Origin: Clostridia bacterium
GTDB taxonomy: Bacteria > Bacillota > DTU025
Assembly: GCA_034926675.1 (NCBI GenBank)
Contig: JAYFQW010000048.1
Location: 1 to 60,811 of the forward strand
Direction: 5' to 3'
DNA length: 60,811 bases
Below are positions 311-60,811 of the stretch, one piece after another. Made by a program: the position numbers and the translations under genes. Numbering within the stretch: the first letter of the stretch is position 1; the number at the start of each line of letters is the position of its first letter. The notes beneath the pieces were generated by a model. It was not told where the DNA came from and made no database searches. It saw only the letters and a list, made by a program, of their open reading frames with translations.

Positions 311-349
311 ACAAAATATATTTGTGTGAGGCACTAAATGAGCTATGCT
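311..349 (+). promoter_or_regulatory. Repressor promoter with palindromic operator
   Basis: A plausible plus-strand promoter has TTGTGT (322-327) and TATGCT (344-349) with a 16-bp spacer. A 15-bp palindrome, ACAAA-ATATA-TTTGT (311-325), overlaps its -35. Transcription would begin near 356, which argues for the repressor start at 369 rather than at 345. It is a candidate autoregulatory operator for the CI/Cro pair. Confidence 0.5.
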
Positions 350-368
350 GGGTATGGGGGTGAAACGA

Positions 369-761
369 ATGGCTGCAAGCATCCTGGGCGAGCGACTGCG
401 CTGGGAACGAGAGCGCGCTGAGCTAACACAGATCCAGGCTGCTGAACGGCTGGGGACCAAGAATTATGTGATCGCCAACTATGAGAGCGGTCGAACTGAA
501 CCTCAAGCCGATTTTATTAGACGTGCAGCTGACTTATATGGATGCTCTACCGATTACCTATTAGGCAAAACCAACTGCAGGAATGAACATATATCTGACG
601 GCATTGGACCAGGCATCGCGACCCGCATCACGCGCATTACCGGTCTGGCTCCTGATGCCGAAGAAGATGTCCTCCAGGCGCTCAAATGGGCCGAATATGA
701 AGTTCGCAGGAAGATAGCATTGAACAAACGAACAGATAAGCCAGGCCCCACGCCTCAATAG
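369..761 (+). CDS. CI-like HTH (XRE family) repressor
   Basis: This 130-residue protein has an N-terminal XRE helix-turn-helix (about residues 5-60, with ERLGTKNYVIANYESGR as the recognition region and the common YGCSTDYLLGK ending) and a short C-terminal helical tail. It has no LexA-type peptidase domain, so it is unlikely to be inactivated by RecA-stimulated self-cleavage. The neighbouring ImmA/IrrE metalloprotease is the usual partner for cleaving such repressors, as in ICEBs1. The start at 369 follows a GGGGGTG ribosome site; an ATG at 345 overlaps the predicted -10. Probably the lysogeny repressor. Confidence 0.85.
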   Translation: MAASILGERLRWERERAELTQIQAAERLGTKNYVIANYESGRTEPQADFIRRAADLYGCSTDYLLGKTNCRNEHISDGIGPGIATRITRITGLAPDAEEDVLQALKWAEYEVRRKIALNKRTDKPGPTPQ

Positions 762-818
762 CCGCAGCCTTTTCGCGCTACACATCGCCTCGGGCCGATC
801 ATCATCGTAGGAGGGCTG

Positions 819-1283
819 ATGATGTCGCCTGAACAATTAGCCGATCTAGTTCGCCACACTTACTCTCAATGTATTGGTCCACCGGTAGACATCGCATCCA
901 TAGCCCGTCAGGCAGGCATTCAGGTTTTGCAATGGCCATTTGCCGATGTGGAGTTGTGCGGCCTACTACACTGGGTTGATGCTAGTCCAGTGATCATTGT
1001 AAACTCCCGGCACTCATGGGCGCGTAGACGCTTCACGCTGGCTCACGAGTTGTGGCACTACATGGTGGACATGCCGTCGCCCAGCGCGGCGCTTATGCTA
1101 AAGCGAGGAGCGCCACGAGGTCACGAGCGCGATGCCGATCATTTCGCGGCGTGCCTGCTGATGGAGGCTGATGCAGTGCGTGATCTGCGAGGGCGTGGCG
1201 TGCCGGCTGATGCCGTTGCCACAGCGCTTGGGGTGTCTAAGCAGGCACTTGAGTTCAGGTTCCGCGAGTTGGGCTTGCGATAG
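819..1283 (+). CDS. ImmA/IrrE-family zinc metallopeptidase
   Basis: The zinc-peptidase signature is complete: the HELWH motif (HExxH) near residue 76 lies in the context RFTLAHELWHYM, with a downstream ERDADHFAACLLM segment supplying the third ligand (E/D region). This is the hallmark of the DUF955 (ImmA/IrrE) family. In ICEBs1 and many Gram-positive prophages the enzyme cleaves the adjacent XRE repressor after DNA damage and so triggers induction. Its place directly after the CI-like gene, with a strong ribosome site (AGGAGGG), supports that role here. The tail (about 120-154) has an HTH-like helix pair often seen in the family. Confidence 0.9.
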   Translation: MMSPEQLADLVRHTYSQCIGPPVDIASIARQAGIQVLQWPFADVELCGLLHWVDASPVIIVNSRHSWARRRFTLAHELWHYMVDMPSPSAALMLKRGAPRGHERDADHFAACLLMEADAVRDLRGRGVPADAVATALGVSKQALEFRFRELGLR

Positions 1284-4692: not shown

Positions 4693-5232
4693 CTAGCTCC
4701 CCATGTGCTCGGCACGGTCGAACATCTCCTGGAGCGTGTAGCAAACCTTCATGGCGTCTACCCACTGCGCATATTGCTGGCTGTAGAACGGATTATCCCA
4801 CGCATCCTGCCACGCCTCTTGAATCGCACGGTTGAAGTACGCAGGGAGGCTCACTGCGCGAAGCGCCCGGATTATCATGGTGTTGGAATCGACGCCAACC
4901 ATAGTGACTATATGGGTGCGCAGGATCGCCTCACGTGAGCCCGGGACGTATGGACGGTACATTGTGGGATCAAATGGCGTCTCGCCGTAAATCTCGCTAT
5001 CCGCAAACCGCCACAGGGGGAGCACGTTTTTATGGTCTGTGAAAGCGGAGACAAGCATTTTGTTGTGGCGTATGATCTCGCTCTCTTGGTCTGCCATGTC
5101 GGTCATGGCGATGATCAGGATGAAACCCGACTGATCCCAATCCAGCAGCATCATATCGCGGCCCCGGACCACCTGGTCAACATTGCGATAGTCCAGGCGC
5201 TGGCCGACGCTCATAGCCATATACTCAGTCAT
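4693..5232 (-). CDS. Hypothetical protein, last gene of the Ibr/methylase operon
   Basis: This 179-residue soluble protein is not recognised. It is rich in acidic and aromatic residues, with a hydrophobic segment FILIIAMTDMAD near residue 35 and no cysteine cluster or signal peptide. The ATG at 5232 overlaps the TGA of the IbrA-type gene by the 4-nt ATGA junction, so translation is coupled and the product is probably made in a fixed ratio with IbrA. It immediately precedes the operon terminator. Such tight coupling suggests it acts with the ATP pyrophosphatase; its function is unknown. Confidence 0.75.
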   Translation of the reverse strand: MTEYMAMSVGQRLDYRNVDQVVRGRDMMLLDWDQSGFILIIAMTDMADQESEIIRHNKMLVSAFTDHKNVLPLWRFADSEIYGETPFDPTMYRPYVPGSREAILRTHIVTMVGVDSNTMIIRALRAVSLPAYFNRAIQEAWQDAWDNPFYSQQYAQWVDAMKVCYTLQEMFDRAEHMGS

Positions 5233-6308
5233 AGTATTGCTCTCCATTTCTCCAGCCTATCTTTTATGTCGGGCTTTTTGCTCACGCCGATATTGTTTTC
5301 CCAATCGTTGATCAAGATCTGTCGGCACTGCTGCCGATACGTGTATTCATCCTGTTCCTGGCCCTCGAAGCGTTTCTGGAAACGCCCCTTCCGCTCGGGC
5401 GCGATAGGCGACGACTCCAGCAGGTAGTCTCGATACTCGCGCCATGTCGGGAATGCGTCGGGTAACTGGTCTGTGTTATACACCATAGCATCCCTCGCAT
5501 ACAGCGCCGCGCAGTGAGTGCTGCCCAGGCGCTTGATAATGCGTTCATAGGTATCTGGCTCCAGCTCCTGCAGCTCTGTCAGGCAATTGAACGATTTCTC
5601 GTGGATGAGATTCGATACCCGCATTGTGCTGTAGATTGAGTGATTCTTGCTGAACATCTTGTCGTAGATCTCGTTGTATGGCACACCGTGGTCGTCAATG
5701 TATTTCCAGATGTCGCCGTGGCCCCAGTCGTACAGCGGGTAAAACTTAAACGATTCCGGGTTGCTGCTCTTGGTGCTCCATTTGACATCCTCGTAGCCCG
5801 GGTTCTTGGTCACAGCCCTGAATCTATTCAGACTCTCGTCTGCCCGTAGCCCTACGAGGAATGCACTGCCCTCTGGCGCCTGCCGCTCGAACCACTCAAA
5901 GAACGGGTAAAACCTCTGCGGATACTCGCCTGCTATCTCGTGGATGCTATCGAGCTCCTTCTCACGCATCCACTCCTCGCCGGGCCCCCACGCATACAGA
6001 AGTTCCTCCGTGTAGCTTGTGGCATTGGTCATGCGGATCGGCACCTGATACCACAGCGGGATCACGTTGGGATGCTCCATCATGCCGCGCATGAGCCGGA
6101 TCGTCGAGCCATACTCCATCTCCTGGTCGAGGAAGAATAGATTGATCTTGCGGTTGCGTTTCACCGCCTCTTCGATCGCCAGGCGATAGAGAACCGTCGA
6201 ATCCTTGCCGCCCGACACGGATACATAGATGCTGTCGAAGCGGTCAAAGATGAAAGCATACCGCTCCCTAGCTGCGTCAAGGACGTTTGTTGTGAGATAC
6301 CGCTTCAT
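5229..6308 (-). CDS. IbrA-like PAPS-reductase-family ATP pyrophosphatase
   Basis: A 359-residue protein with the PP-loop SGGKDS (residues 33-38, context YVSVSGGKDSTVLYRLA) that binds ATP in N-type ATP pyrophosphatases, and the conserved LVGLRADESLNRFRA segment (about 170) typical of the PAPS reductase/DUF3440 family. In Escherichia coli IbrA is paired with the ParB-like IbrB, and an IbrB-like gene lies four genes upstream here (8372-8881). It lacks the CxxC cluster expected of the phosphorothioation enzyme DndC, so sulfur insertion into DNA is not supported. Activation of a nucleic-acid or nucleotide substrate is the family expectation. It overlaps the upstream gene by 32 bp. Confidence 0.85.
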   Translation of the reverse strand: MKRYLTTNVLDAARERYAFIFDRFDSIYVSVSGGKDSTVLYRLAIEEAVKRNRKINLFFLDQEMEYGSTIRLMRGMMEHPNVIPLWYQVPIRMTNATSYTEELLYAWGPGEEWMREKELDSIHEIAGEYPQRFYPFFEWFERQAPEGSAFLVGLRADESLNRFRAVTKNPGYEDVKWSTKSSNPESFKFYPLYDWGHGDIWKYIDDHGVPYNEIYDKMFSKNHSIYSTMRVSNLIHEKSFNCLTELQELEPDTYERIIKRLGSTHCAALYARDAMVYNTDQLPDAFPTWREYRDYLLESSPIAPERKGRFQKRFEGQEQDEYTYRQQCRQILINDWENNIGVSKKPDIKDRLEKWRAIL

Positions 6309-43676: not shown

Positions 43677-43751
43677 TGGTTGCGCGAGGAGGGATCGAAC
43701 CTCCGGCCGGTCGGATATCAGCCGACTGCTCTGCCGCTGAGCTATCGCGCA
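43677..43751 (-). tRNA. tRNA-Ile(GAT) with encoded CCA
   Basis: A complete cloverleaf: acceptor TGCGCGA/TCGCGCA, D-arm GCTC/GAGC, anticodon stem GTCGG/CCGAC with loop CTGATAT (anticodon GAT), T-arm GGAGG-TTCGATC-CCTCC, and CCA encoded. Confidence 0.93.
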
Positions 43752-43755
43752 ATAC

Positions 43756-43829
43756 TGGTTGCAGGGACGGGAATCTAACCCGTATCGCGAGGTCATGGGC
43801 CTCGTGAGTTGCCGTTACTCTACCCTGCG
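43756..43829 (-). tRNA. tRNA-Met(CAT), initiator-like
   Basis: A cloverleaf with acceptor CGCAGGG/CCCTGCA, so position 1-72 is a C-A mismatch, the key initiator hallmark. The D-stem GAGT/ACTC has the A11-U24 pair, and the anticodon stem CGAGG/CCTCG has two of the three initiator G-C pairs (30 and 31). Loop CCCATGA gives anticodon CAT. The T-loop is TTAGATT, with A instead of C56. CCA is encoded. It may serve as a phage initiator tRNA or be a diverged elongator. Confidence 0.85.
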
Positions 43830-43835
43830 ACAAAC

Positions 43836-43913
43836 TGGTCTGAGCGGCACGATTTGAACGTGCAACCCCCTACTCCCAAGGCAGGTGCGCTAGCCAAGTT
43901 GCGCTACACTCAG
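43836..43913 (-). tRNA. tRNA-Pro(TGG) with encoded CCA
   Basis: Cloverleaf with acceptor CTGAGTG/CGCTCAG, D-arm GCGC/GCGC, anticodon stem CCTGC/GTAGG and loop CTTGGGA (anticodon TGG), T-arm GCACG-TTCAAAT-CGTGC and an encoded CCA. Confidence 0.93.
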
Positions 43914-43920
43914 GCAAAAC

Positions 43921-44000
43921 TGGTGGACGCGCCGAGAGTCGAATTCGGCTCCGGTGCCGTGCGCTTCGGCTTTCGGCTCCGTCGAAACCATACCGCGCCC
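43921..44000 (-). ncRNA. tmRNA-like tRNA domain without tag reading frame
   Basis: An 80-nt element (77 nt plus encoded CCA). Acceptor GGGCGCG/CGCGTCC forms seven pairs with G3-U70 and A73, the alanine identity elements of tmRNA. Four nucleotides later comes GGTTTCGACGG, the D-arm replacement typical of tmRNA (GG-N-TTCGAC). The T-arm is CCGAA-TTCGACT-CTCGG (one A-C mismatch) with the tmRNA-type loop. Between them lies only a helix-2-like hairpin (GGAGCCG/CGGCACC, 14-nt loop), with no mRNA domain, pseudoknots or tag codons. It is the first RNA of the cluster. A degenerate conventional tRNA is the alternative, but no anticodon arm or D-stem can be formed. Confidence 0.75.
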
Positions 44001-44112
44001 GAAATTTATAGGCCCGGCCACACAATCTAGGCGTGGTCGTCACAAGGACGTTTTTCCCGGGCCTTACACATGGGCGTAAATTGCCCCTCATATATGGCTC
44101 CGAAGGCGCATT

Positions 44113-46462: not shown

Positions 46463-46776
46463 TCCCCTGCCTCCTCCCGCTCGCTCAGCACGGCTGTCAC
46501 TTCGGCAGGCCCCAAATCCCCGGCCGGGCCACAGAATATCGCGTCTGTACCGTCGCCTTTCCGCGCACCAAACGGAAGCTCTTTCCGCTCGTACCCCGCC
46601 TGCACCCGCCTGCTCCACACGGCACACGCTAGCTGTCGGTTGCTACACGTTCTAGTGCTCGCACCGCATACCGTGCAGCACACTGTGTGGAGCATCACCC
46701 CACTGCGCTCCTCTGTACGGGCAGAGAGGTATTGGGCCTTGCCGCCGCAGAAGGGGCAGGGTTTCAGCTCACTCAT
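46459..46776 (-). CDS. Lar-like restriction alleviation protein
   Basis: A 105-residue protein whose first 35 residues match Lar (SELKPCPFCGGKAQYLSA, CCTVCGAST), including the CPFCGG and CxxC zinc pairs. Lar family members relieve type I restriction by modulating host modification. The C-terminal half is unrelated. ATG at 46776 after GGGAGGTGG. Confidence 0.8.
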   Translation of the reverse strand: MSELKPCPFCGGKAQYLSARTEERSGVMLHTVCCTVCGASTRTCSNRQLACAVWSRRVQAGYERKELPFGARKGDGTDAIFCGPAGDLGPAEVTAVLSEREEAGE

Positions 46777-48074: not shown

Positions 48075-48260
48075 TCACGGCCCATCCCATTCGGGCAGGT
48101 TGTCGTATTTCTCCTGGGTCATCTCGCGGACTTTGATTGTGATCTCGTCGCCGACCTCTGAGTCCTCCAGGTCTGCCTCAAGCAGTTGCATAAGAAACGC
48201 TAAGTTCTCCGTGCACAACGTGCTCGCGCCCGGAAATAGCTCCACTTTCCACACCTTCAC
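48075..48260 (-). CDS. Small hypothetical protein
   Basis: A 61-residue protein (VKVWKVELFPGASTLCTENL ...). GTG at 48260 overlaps by one base the TAG of the DUF5131 gene and has GGAGGGG at 8 nt. Larger in-frame extension is antisense-like and rejected. Confidence 0.6.
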   Translation of the reverse strand: MKVWKVELFPGASTLCTENLAFLMQLLEADLEDSEVGDEITIKVREMTQEKYDNLPEWDGP

Positions 48261-49858
48261 TATTCCGTCCCCTCCGGATACTCGTCCCACTCGCGCCCAT
48301 CGAGCAGGCGACCAGACAGTGCCGCGCCGACGCGGTAACTGTATGACCCATCGGGCCACCTATGCGACTTAACCCCTGCGCACTGGCTGCACCGGTCGCG
48401 GTAGTCGGCGTCCACGATCCAATAGCAACCACCCTCACAGGCATGGCTGTCAGTGCAGCCGCACACCGGGCACGTCGTCTCGCCCGACATGATCTCGTCA
48501 AAGGTGTCGCGCTCAGGAGCCCACTGCCCCCAGCTCTTAAAATGGAAGGGCACACGTGCCGCCAGGCACTGGCCGCGCAGACTGCGAACCCAGTCGGGGT
48601 GCATGGGTCGGGCGTTGGTGCCCGTTTCGCCGCCGCAAATTACCCAGTCCAGACCTCGCCTTCCAAAAACGCAGGCAGAAGGTGTGCAACTCAGAATTCC
48701 CGGGCGCGATGAAGGATCACGAGTTTCCGCCAAAGGATTTTCGGGTCTGGTGCAGCCGCCGTTATAGTGATCGCAATCAGTAAATGGCGGTAGCCAGGAT
48801 GAAAGATCCACCGGTCCCAGCATCGGTTCCACGCTGACGAACCTCGCCGCCGCAGGTGTTTGAAGGAGGAGTGGTATCCGCTCATCGGCTCTGGCCTGAT
48901 TCTCGGCGGTCACACCTGCCCAACAATTCGACAGCGGCCAACTGATAGGAGGAGTAATGTAGGACACCTCACCGTGAGAATGGCCATTGCCATGCCTAAT
49001 CCGGTCCTGCCAATTGTCTTGCTGTGTGCCCCACCTCAGGTTCGGCAGGGCGTTATTTGTGGGATCACCGGTCCTATGGCACGCCTGTTCGCCGGGTTGG
49101 GGAGGTCGCACGAAGGCGGTTAGGACAAGTCGATGGACCAATTCCCGGTAGCCGATACCTTCGCGGTAGAGCATAACTCGCATGTGCCCATCCTCACCCG
49201 GCATCGGAGTCATTGGTGTAGGTGTGGGCGGAAAGGGTAAAGGCCTGCCTACTCGCTCGATGTATTGGGCCTTTTCTTTGCATTTCTGACTGCAGTAGCG
49301 CCGTTTCGCATATCCCGTAGTGTTATTACCGCAGTTGACGCAAGCGCCGCTTCCATGGCGACTGAAGATGACGCCATCATTGCGAACAAGATAGTTCTCG
49401 TAACCAGGCACGGGACGTGTTTCAAGTACCATATCGGCTGTCTCACGTGCCACCCCGGTCGAGTCAATGGCTCTGGCGACTCGGAATGGCGTCGCTGAAT
49501 CAGAGAGATACTCTCGCATCCTTTGCGGTCGCTTAGTGAGCACCATGAATATGTGTTGAGGACACAACGCCATCACCGCGAATACCCGGTGTATATACTC
49601 ATCCGGCACATCATCGTGGAACAGATCGCCCATGCTGCATACGAAAATCCTCGCCGGTTTCCACATCCTCAGCGGCTCCTTCAGTTTGTCCTCGTGCAGC
49701 GTTACCTTGAACGGCTCGTCCGCCGGGTATCCACACCTGCCCCGAAGGCGCTGAGCCATGCGCTTGGCATAGCAATTCGCGCAGCCTTCGGAGACCGGCG
49801 TGCAGCCCGTTACTATATTCCAAGTTTTCTCAGTCCAGCTGATTGACGTCGTGTTCAC
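48260..49858 (-). CDS. DUF5131 (Gp37/Gp68) radical-SAM-like protein interrupted by an HNH homing nuclease
   Basis: A 532-residue chimera. Residues 1-140 match DUF5131 (SISWTEKTWNIVTGCTPVSE, with GC-x7-CxxC, then FVCSMGDLFHDDVP, MVLTKRPQRM). Residues of about 145-297 are a NUMOD4-HNH nuclease with zinc knuckles (PVPGYENYLVRNDGVIFS, CVNCG, CSQKC, VHRLVLTAFVRPPQPGEQ, NNALPNLRWGTQQDN). DUF5131 then resumes (WPLSNCWAGVTAENQARADE, FVSVEPMLGPVDL, WVICGGETG). The frame is open throughout. Inteins end in HN-C/S/T; no such splice junctions are seen. GTG at 49858 follows GAGGGGTGG. Confidence 0.85.
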   Translation of the reverse strand: MNTTSISWTEKTWNIVTGCTPVSEGCANCYAKRMAQRLRGRCGYPADEPFKVTLHEDKLKEPLRMWKPARIFVCSMGDLFHDDVPDEYIHRVFAVMALCPQHIFMVLTKRPQRMREYLSDSATPFRVARAIDSTGVARETADMVLETRPVPGYENYLVRNDGVIFSRHGSGACVNCGNNTTGYAKRRYCSQKCKEKAQYIERVGRPLPFPPTPTPMTPMPGEDGHMRVMLYREGIGYRELVHRLVLTAFVRPPQPGEQACHRTGDPTNNALPNLRWGTQQDNWQDRIRHGNGHSHGEVSYITPPISWPLSNCWAGVTAENQARADERIPLLLQTPAAARFVSVEPMLGPVDLSSWLPPFTDCDHYNGGCTRPENPLAETRDPSSRPGILSCTPSACVFGRRGLDWVICGGETGTNARPMHPDWVRSLRGQCLAARVPFHFKSWGQWAPERDTFDEIMSGETTCPVCGCTDSHACEGGCYWIVDADYRDRCSQCAGVKSHRWPDGSYSYRVGAALSGRLLDGREWDEYPEGTE

Positions 49859-50169
49859 CAGCTCCACCCCTCTTCGCGCCGAATCTGTGCCTGCGCCACG
49901 TCCGCCAGCATCATGCAGTAGTTCGCCACATCAACCGCCTCTTCGATGACGGCGTATAGGTTAGTCAGCCCATCGTCGGTCAGGATCGCGTCCATAGCTC
50001 CGATCAGTTCTAAGACCTCTTCTGTCATCCCACCAACTAGGTATTGGAGCGTGCAGTTCTCCCAACCGCCTCTGTAGTCGCGCGCCCTGAGTTTGCATTC
50101 CATCAGTTGCGCGAACCAAGCCACTGTTGGTCTGGGCTCTGTATCAATCGCCTCTTTGAGTTCGTTCAC
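49855..50169 (-). CDS. MazG-like nucleotide pyrophosphohydrolase
   Basis: A 104-residue helical protein with the MazG metal-binding pattern: TEEVLELIGAMDAIL (E-x-x-E), then AVIEEAVDVANYCMMLADVA (E-E-x-x-D...N). It likely removes nucleotide triphosphates. The GTG at 50169 overlaps the upstream stop (GTGA) inside a junction sequence repeated at the next gene boundary. Confidence 0.75.
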   Translation of the reverse strand: MNELKEAIDTEPRPTVAWFAQLMECKLRARDYRGGWENCTLQYLVGGMTEEVLELIGAMDAILTDDGLTNLYAVIEEAVDVANYCMMLADVAQAQIRREEGWSW

Positions 50170-60670: not shown

Positions 60671-60811
60671 CCTCGCACGCTGTGCGCAATAGTGCTAGGC
60701 CGGTATGCTAGAGTCAATGGGCCAAAGTATGTCGTTAGGCGTTACCCCTAGTGCGCGGGCTAGTTTGTCGATCTCGACCGCAGTTGGCATCCGTTTATCG
60801 TGTTCAATAAG
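60671..60811. repeat. Terminal direct repeat (circular overlap), right copy
   Basis: Identical to 1-141. See the left copy. Confidence 0.95.
60695..60811 (-). CDS. Partial copy of the Cro-like gene (contig edge)
   Basis: The repeat contains the 3' part of the Cro-like gene, identical to 25-141. It is an artefact of the linear contig and should be merged with the full gene at 25-243. Confidence 0.9.
   Translation of the reverse strand, partial: LIEHDKRMPTAVEIDKLARALGVTPNDILWPIDSSIPA

Follow-up and report, generated by a model that had tools for sequence, protein, structure and literature searches.

The window analyzed here, a contig of 60,811 bp taken over its whole length, carries on its minus strand a small tmRNA-like gene that heads a four-gene array in the order TLD-Pro-Met-Ile, where TLD stands for the tRNA-like domain of tmRNA (Table 1). 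A tRNA-Pro gene begins 7 nt downstream of the element, as expected from the earlier note, which had placed the element first in a tRNA cluster. The spacers of the array are 4 to 7 nt long and begin with GTTT or GTAT after every encoded CCA. On the upstream side, a gene resembling region 4 of sigma-70 ends 112 nt before the element, and no consensus promoter or terminator was seen in this gap. The gap (folding z of −2.2) does contain a strong hairpin, GGCCCGG/CCGGGCC.

The first and last 141 bp of the contig are identical, and this exact overlap marks it as a circular phage genome that is complete, with a size of ~60.67 kb. Its genes include those for the small and large terminase subunits, portal, minor head and tape-measure proteins, a DnaB helicase and RusA. 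The genome also has a lysogeny-type pair, in which a phage metallo-protease (phrog_87) comes after a repressor-like protein; the window open reading frames tested included no integrase. Two other genes were recorded. One, encoding 535 amino acids, aligns over the full length of phrog_2045 (299 positions) but has ~230 extra residues with an HNH endonuclease domain, in the manner of an intein-like or in-frame homing insertion. The other resembles phosphoadenosine phosphosulfate reductase (phrog_2302, E = 1e-89). The phage contig was binned with a 3.38-Mb bacterial assembly, and the identity of the host rests on this binning. That assembly contains an intact 351-nt ssrA and an intact smpB. None of 10 TerL-related loci showed the element, which is thus not fixed in the phage lineage.

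Table 1. Features of the phage contig and of the host rescue loci (strand relative to the sequence as deposited; C6 is a contig of the host assembly, G000)
Feature	Coordinates	Strand	Basis
TLD-only (mRNA-domain-less) tmRNA gene, 80 nt with encoded CCA	43921..44000	-	sequence; model R2; family covariation
Acceptor stem 5' strand GGGCGCG, G3 = 43998	43994..44000	-	sequence, covariation
tmRNA-type D-arm replacement GGUUUCGAC, SmpB-contact motif, E. coli positions 13-21	43981..43989	-	sequence; PMC8363625
Helix 2 (P2) 5' strand CGGAGCC	43975..43981	-	covariation; one A-A mismatch in window copy
Apical motif GCCGAAGCGC, subtype with CCRAAGNG loop	43961..43970	-	recurs in otherwise different phages
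Helix 2 (P2) 3' strand GGCACCG	43952..43958	-	covariation
3-nt linker GAG; A at 43950 = E. coli A334 equivalent	43949..43951	-	conservation; PMC8363625
T-arm CCGAA-UUCGACU-CUCGG, A53-C61 mismatch at top	43932..43948	-	sequence, covariation
Acceptor stem 3' strand CGCGUCC, U70 = 43927	43925..43931	-	sequence, covariation
Discriminator A73 and encoded CCA	43921..43924	-	sequence
tRNA-Pro(TGG)	43836..43913	-	ARAGORN, Rfam
tRNA-Met(CAT)	43756..43829	-	ARAGORN, Rfam
tRNA-Ile(GAT), last gene of array	43677..43751	-	ARAGORN, Rfam
Hairpin between sigma-like gene and element	44010..44064	-	
Identical contig ends	1..141 and 60671..60811		
Repressor-like protein, then metallo-protease	345..1283	+	phrog_87
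Phosphoadenosine phosphosulfate reductase-like gene	5229..6308	-	phrog_2302
535-aa open reading frame with HNH domain	48260..49867	-	phrog_2045
Host ssrA, 351 nt	C6:109414..109764		
Host smpB	C6:109828..110253		

Composition and detection of the element

Read on the minus strand from 44000 to 43921, the RNA is GGGCGCG-GUAU-GGUUUCGAC-GGAGCC-GAAA-GCCGAAGCGC-AC-GGCACCG-GAG-CCGAA-UUCGACU-CUCGG-CGCGUCC-A-CCA. The parts listed in the earlier note are all present: a 7-bp acceptor stem with G3-U70, followed by A73 and an encoded CCA, the GG-N-UUCGAC sequence four nucleotides after the acceptor and the T-loop UUCGACU. The element described there is therefore real, but the description required three corrections: the strand is minus; the T-stem has an A53-C61 mismatch and helix 2 one A-A mismatch; and the type has a precedent in phage DS6A. 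The tmRNA-specific block GGNUUCGAC replaces the D-arm, and a short helix 2, CGGAGCC/GGCACCG, is capped by GCCGAAGCGC. Inspection of the sequence revealed no anticodon arm, D-stem, pseudoknot, resume codon, tag frame or stop.

The element shares with tRNA-Ala the G3-U70 pair, A73, CCA and T-arm but differs from it in lacking a D-stem and an anticodon arm. Neither ARAGORN nor RF00005 matched it and no cloverleaf was found, which settles the question raised in the earlier note of a higher-scoring canonical tRNA. With full-length one-piece tmRNA (RF00023), of which the host ssrA is an example, it shares the G3-U70/A73 acceptor, GGUUUCGAC, the T-arm and the conserved A334; the pseudoknots, resume codon, tag and stop of that RNA are missing, helix 2 is reduced to ~7 bp, and the length is 80 rather than 351 nt. 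A permuted two-piece tmRNA was considered and is excluded by the standard order of the parts and by the finding of a single model match in the complete phage genome, where no second tmRNA piece exists.

Standard annotation tools did not recover the element. ARAGORN and Rfam at the gathering threshold called the three tRNAs of the window but not their neighbor, and a permissive Rfam search of the window returned just a cyano_tmRNA fragment (8 bits, E = 8) that reaches the 5' end, with no full match. RF00023 exceeds its threshold in 45 of the 57 records that hold relatives; the window copy, which does not reach a score above 47 bits, is missed. When the element, or the entire array, was compared with phage records by blastn, no homologous element was found. 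A covariance model (R2) was decisive, having been built only from the elements of other phages; the window was left out of it together with its nearest relative in the subtype. It matched the window element at 68.6 bits (E = 7.9e-15) and nothing else in the 60.8 kb. This score is far beyond chance and lies in the middle of the range (~43 to 84 bits) of 87 relatives that were not used for training. With a related model (R1), the full-length tmRNA of the host scored 28 bits and most tRNAs scored below 25.

Fold and conserved bases

The pairing of helix 2, which no search pattern constrained, extends from the C of GGNUUCGAC to three nucleotides before the T-stem. In 130 listed elements reduced to 85% identity, its six variable pairs are formed in 127, 124, 121, 120, 113 and 104 cases (shuffle maxima, 65 to 77), and a register shift of one column abolishes the signal. 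Among 44 aligned elements the covariation score of helix 2 was 0.761, compared to 0.165 for shuffled and at most 0.154 for slid alignments. Folding of the window sequence by itself favors a different inner fold by ~5 kcal/mol; however, the family fold is the minimum free energy structure in only 64 of the 130 elements, and single-sequence folding is thus uninformative. The window-free model and the covariation across more than 100 phage homologs bear out the central proposal of the earlier note, that the end pieces of a tmRNA are joined here by a short helix-2 hairpin, with alanine identity and without a tag-coding domain.

Alanyl-tRNA synthetase (AlaRS) recognizes G3-U70 and A73 (PMC3968760), and in Escherichia coli tmRNA A15, U17 and A334 form a pocket for Trp122 of SmpB, while G19 packs on SmpB (PMC8363625). 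Among the distinct listed elements, G3-U70 was present in 175 of 176, A73 in all 176 and an A at the A334-equivalent position, the second linker base before the T-arm, in 174; the last was specified by no search. Acceptor pairs 4-69 to 7-66 vary freely and include all types. As elements were selected partly on their acceptor and T-stem pairings, the independent evidence consists of helix 2, the A334 equivalent and the occurrence of G3-U70 rather than G3-C70. From the conservation of G3-U70, A73 and A334, the family looks selected for alanine charging and SmpB binding.

The window copy is not a perfect member of this family. Its A53-C61 is the sole T-stem closing pair that is not G-C among 130 relatives and, together with the A-A mismatch in helix 2, makes some decay of this copy possible. 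These two helix mismatches, and the damaged D-loop in the copy of Streptomyces phage Alone3, are what might be seen if the element were a functionless, decaying relic of a full tmRNA gene once acquired by a phage. We find this reading improbable, given that helix 2 covaries, that at least 176 distinct sequences have kept G3-U70, A73 and the A334 equivalent with few exceptions despite drift at other bases and that the window copy scores in the middle of the range.

Distribution in phages

Pattern scans of IMG/VR yielded at least 240 elements in at least 240 loci, at least 176 of them distinct; the listed elements are 65 to 88 nt long, with a mode of 82. The carriers number in the hundreds and are phages that are not related to one another. 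The first, gapped pattern (GGTTTCGACGG, 19 to 49 nt, TTCGANTC) was run on viral contigs and gave 55 stretches with 34 complete elements. Two broader patterns, neither of which took account of helix 2 or of most of the 3' acceptor, had at least 120 matches each; of the new loci among the matches listed, 105 of 108 and 94 of 96, respectively, held complete elements. A rough capture-recapture estimate for one pattern suggests ~250 elements in the collection. Across 85,000 genomes of bacteria and archaea, a stricter pattern found only 3 places, and when R1 was run on 398 genomes from the phylum of the host, it identified two carriers, the window phage itself accounting for one. About eight named, cultured phages carry the element, mostly unannotated: Streptomyces phages pSt2308, Shaeky, LuckySocke, GiJojo (counted from a 97.5% match across the element only), BRock and Alone3, Stenotrophomonas virus Jojan60 and Pontimonas phage phiPsal1.

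Several candidates were set aside in these counts. Mycobacterium phage Adephagia, where the match adjoins the integrase, and Gordonia phage Schmidt gave no model match and look like cases of attachment-site fragments. ARAGORN calls of "tmRNA" overlapping elements in four loci (L089, L113, L142 and L294) were judged to be spurious extensions past the element. Stenotrophomonas phage QDWS359 has an ARAGORN-predicted permuted tmRNA (L296:1444-1861) with the tag ANDSVYAQAIAA, near tRNA-fMet and tRNA-Ile and unannotated in the record; it was not counted as an element. Some loci hold more than one copy: a contig of an Anaerolineae metagenome-assembled genome (L082:592-800) has a tandem pair scoring 61 and 36 bits, one of them a 67-nt form, and locus L208 has a second copy at 5-81.

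SmpB is encoded in none of the 57 element-carrying phage records, and a full-length tmRNA besides the element was found in one. In this record (L091; 123,582 bp), the TLD-only element lies at 46486-46567 and the full-length tmRNA at 77588-77979. Tyrosine integrases are present in 13 of the 57 records. Because ssrA is a common phage integration site, these integrases might point to an attP that duplicates the 3' end of the ssrA gene in the host, but such a source is scarcely credible for the window element: its longest identity to the host ssrA is 11 nt and falls at the 5' D-loop motif instead of the 3' end, whereas att cores are typically 30 to 45 bp (PMC10865867), and the contig is circular and the host ssrA intact.

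A tRNA lies within 300 nt of 17.5% of listed elements, compared to 6% of random positions. Other elements are found elsewhere; in one group of phages they are flanked by the genes for the prohead protease and the major capsid protein (L295:2501-2579 and loci L031, L087, L097, L111, L139, L168 and L263), a placement that may provide late, strong expression. Both of these settings, including the head of the window array, would suit a tRNA-like processing signal at which RNase P and tRNA 3' nucleases free the flanking tRNAs or the 5' end of the capsid mRNA. Recognition by RNase P, however, needs neither G3-U70, GGUUUCGAC nor A334, all of which are near-invariant, and with so few of the listed elements close to a tRNA, we regard a processing role as very unlikely. 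No protein neighbor is common to the elements generally, and the RNA may accordingly act on factors of the host.

A possible role in host ribosome rescue

Such RNAs are not without precedent, a point absent from the earlier note. Mycobacterium phage DS6A has a "TLD only" tmRNA, reported from that single phage (tmRNA Website; PMC4131195, PMC11915505). A 2025 census of 97,179 tmRNA sequences contained nine "standard, no CDS" forms, and the minimal forms that it names are DS6A and two ~65-bp plastid genes (PMC11915505). Compared by description only, the DS6A and window genes are alike in being phage genes without a tag reading frame; the window copy differs in belonging to a tRNA array and to a different phage. 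The tag-less mitochondrial tmRNA (RF02544) and the plastid TLDs also lack a tag reading frame (PMC11915505), but the mitochondrial form is usually permuted and organellar, whereas the window element has the standard order and is found in a phage. In a literature search that left bioRxiv mostly outside its scope, no paper on a phage-wide TLD-only family was found. The DS6A-like kind is thus known already but is far larger than reported, and the new information concerns how large and diverse the TLD-only phage tmRNAs are as a group and the selective signature that they bear.

Judged from its sequence, the window locus holds a gene with a covariation-supported fold, alanine-identity and SmpB-contact nucleotides, a place in a tRNA array and membership in a large phage family. 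We consider it probable that this gene is a TLD-only tmRNA that inhibits or diverts host trans-translation. The RNA would be the tRNA-like domain of a tmRNA from which the pseudoknots and the tag-coding region had been removed through truncation of helix 2. It may be co-transcribed with the three tRNAs, RNase P and 3' nucleases then trimming it. Charging would be carried out by host AlaRS, and host SmpB and EF-Tu would carry the charged RNA into non-stop ribosomes, where it would compete with host tmRNA and could donate one alanine. As there would be no message to switch to, normal tagging and release would fail, and the phage would in this way inhibit or divert host trans-translation. In line with this proposal are the conservation of G3-U70/A73 and A334, the presence of intact ssrA and smpB genes in the host and a published case of inhibition by a TLD-only RNA: an RNA similar to the DS6A form has been reported to inhibit tmRNA, and charging was not required. 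An alanyl-TLD-SmpB-EF-Tu complex has been crystallized on a stalled ribosome (PDB 4ABR, cited in PMC3968760).

That alanine identity has been kept although the published inhibition needs no charging suggests that more than SmpB binding is involved. Either entry into the ribosome would be needed for a good block, or the RNA would donate alanine without a template. The latter is the main rival explanation, in which the effect would be rescue rather than inhibition: the charged RNA and SmpB would add one or several alanines, a backup factor would release the chain and the phage would obtain ribosome recycling without an SsrA tag. The G3-U70 pair, at the frequency given above, goes beyond what pure titration of SmpB would need, and tag-less mitochondrial tmRNAs persist alongside SmpB (PMC11915505). 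The sole published functional data that we found on such an RNA, however, show inhibition of tmRNA. We know of no message-free release route, and we consider template-free rescue unlikely, although less so than the other alternatives discussed here.

At the level of the family, the balance tips slightly toward phages as a group possessing an RNA dedicated to countering, or re-routing, the rescue of bacterial ribosomes, in the form of alanine-charged, SmpB-bound, message-less tmRNAs. With similarly guarded preference, we suspect that this family is large and fast-moving and acts as dominant-negative RNAs or template-free alanine donors, DS6A having been a first glimpse and no exception. If so, blocking or diverting trans-translation would be a common phage strategy, carried by an ~80-nt RNA that standard annotation has mostly overlooked, and it would then have to be asked why interference with ribosome rescue is so frequent among phages. 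The elements may also be useful as naturally occurring minimal TLDs in message-free studies of SmpB and tmRNA. The conservation of G3-U70 makes one point sharp and testable, namely, that selection would keep the RNA chargeable even though the published inhibition did not need charging.
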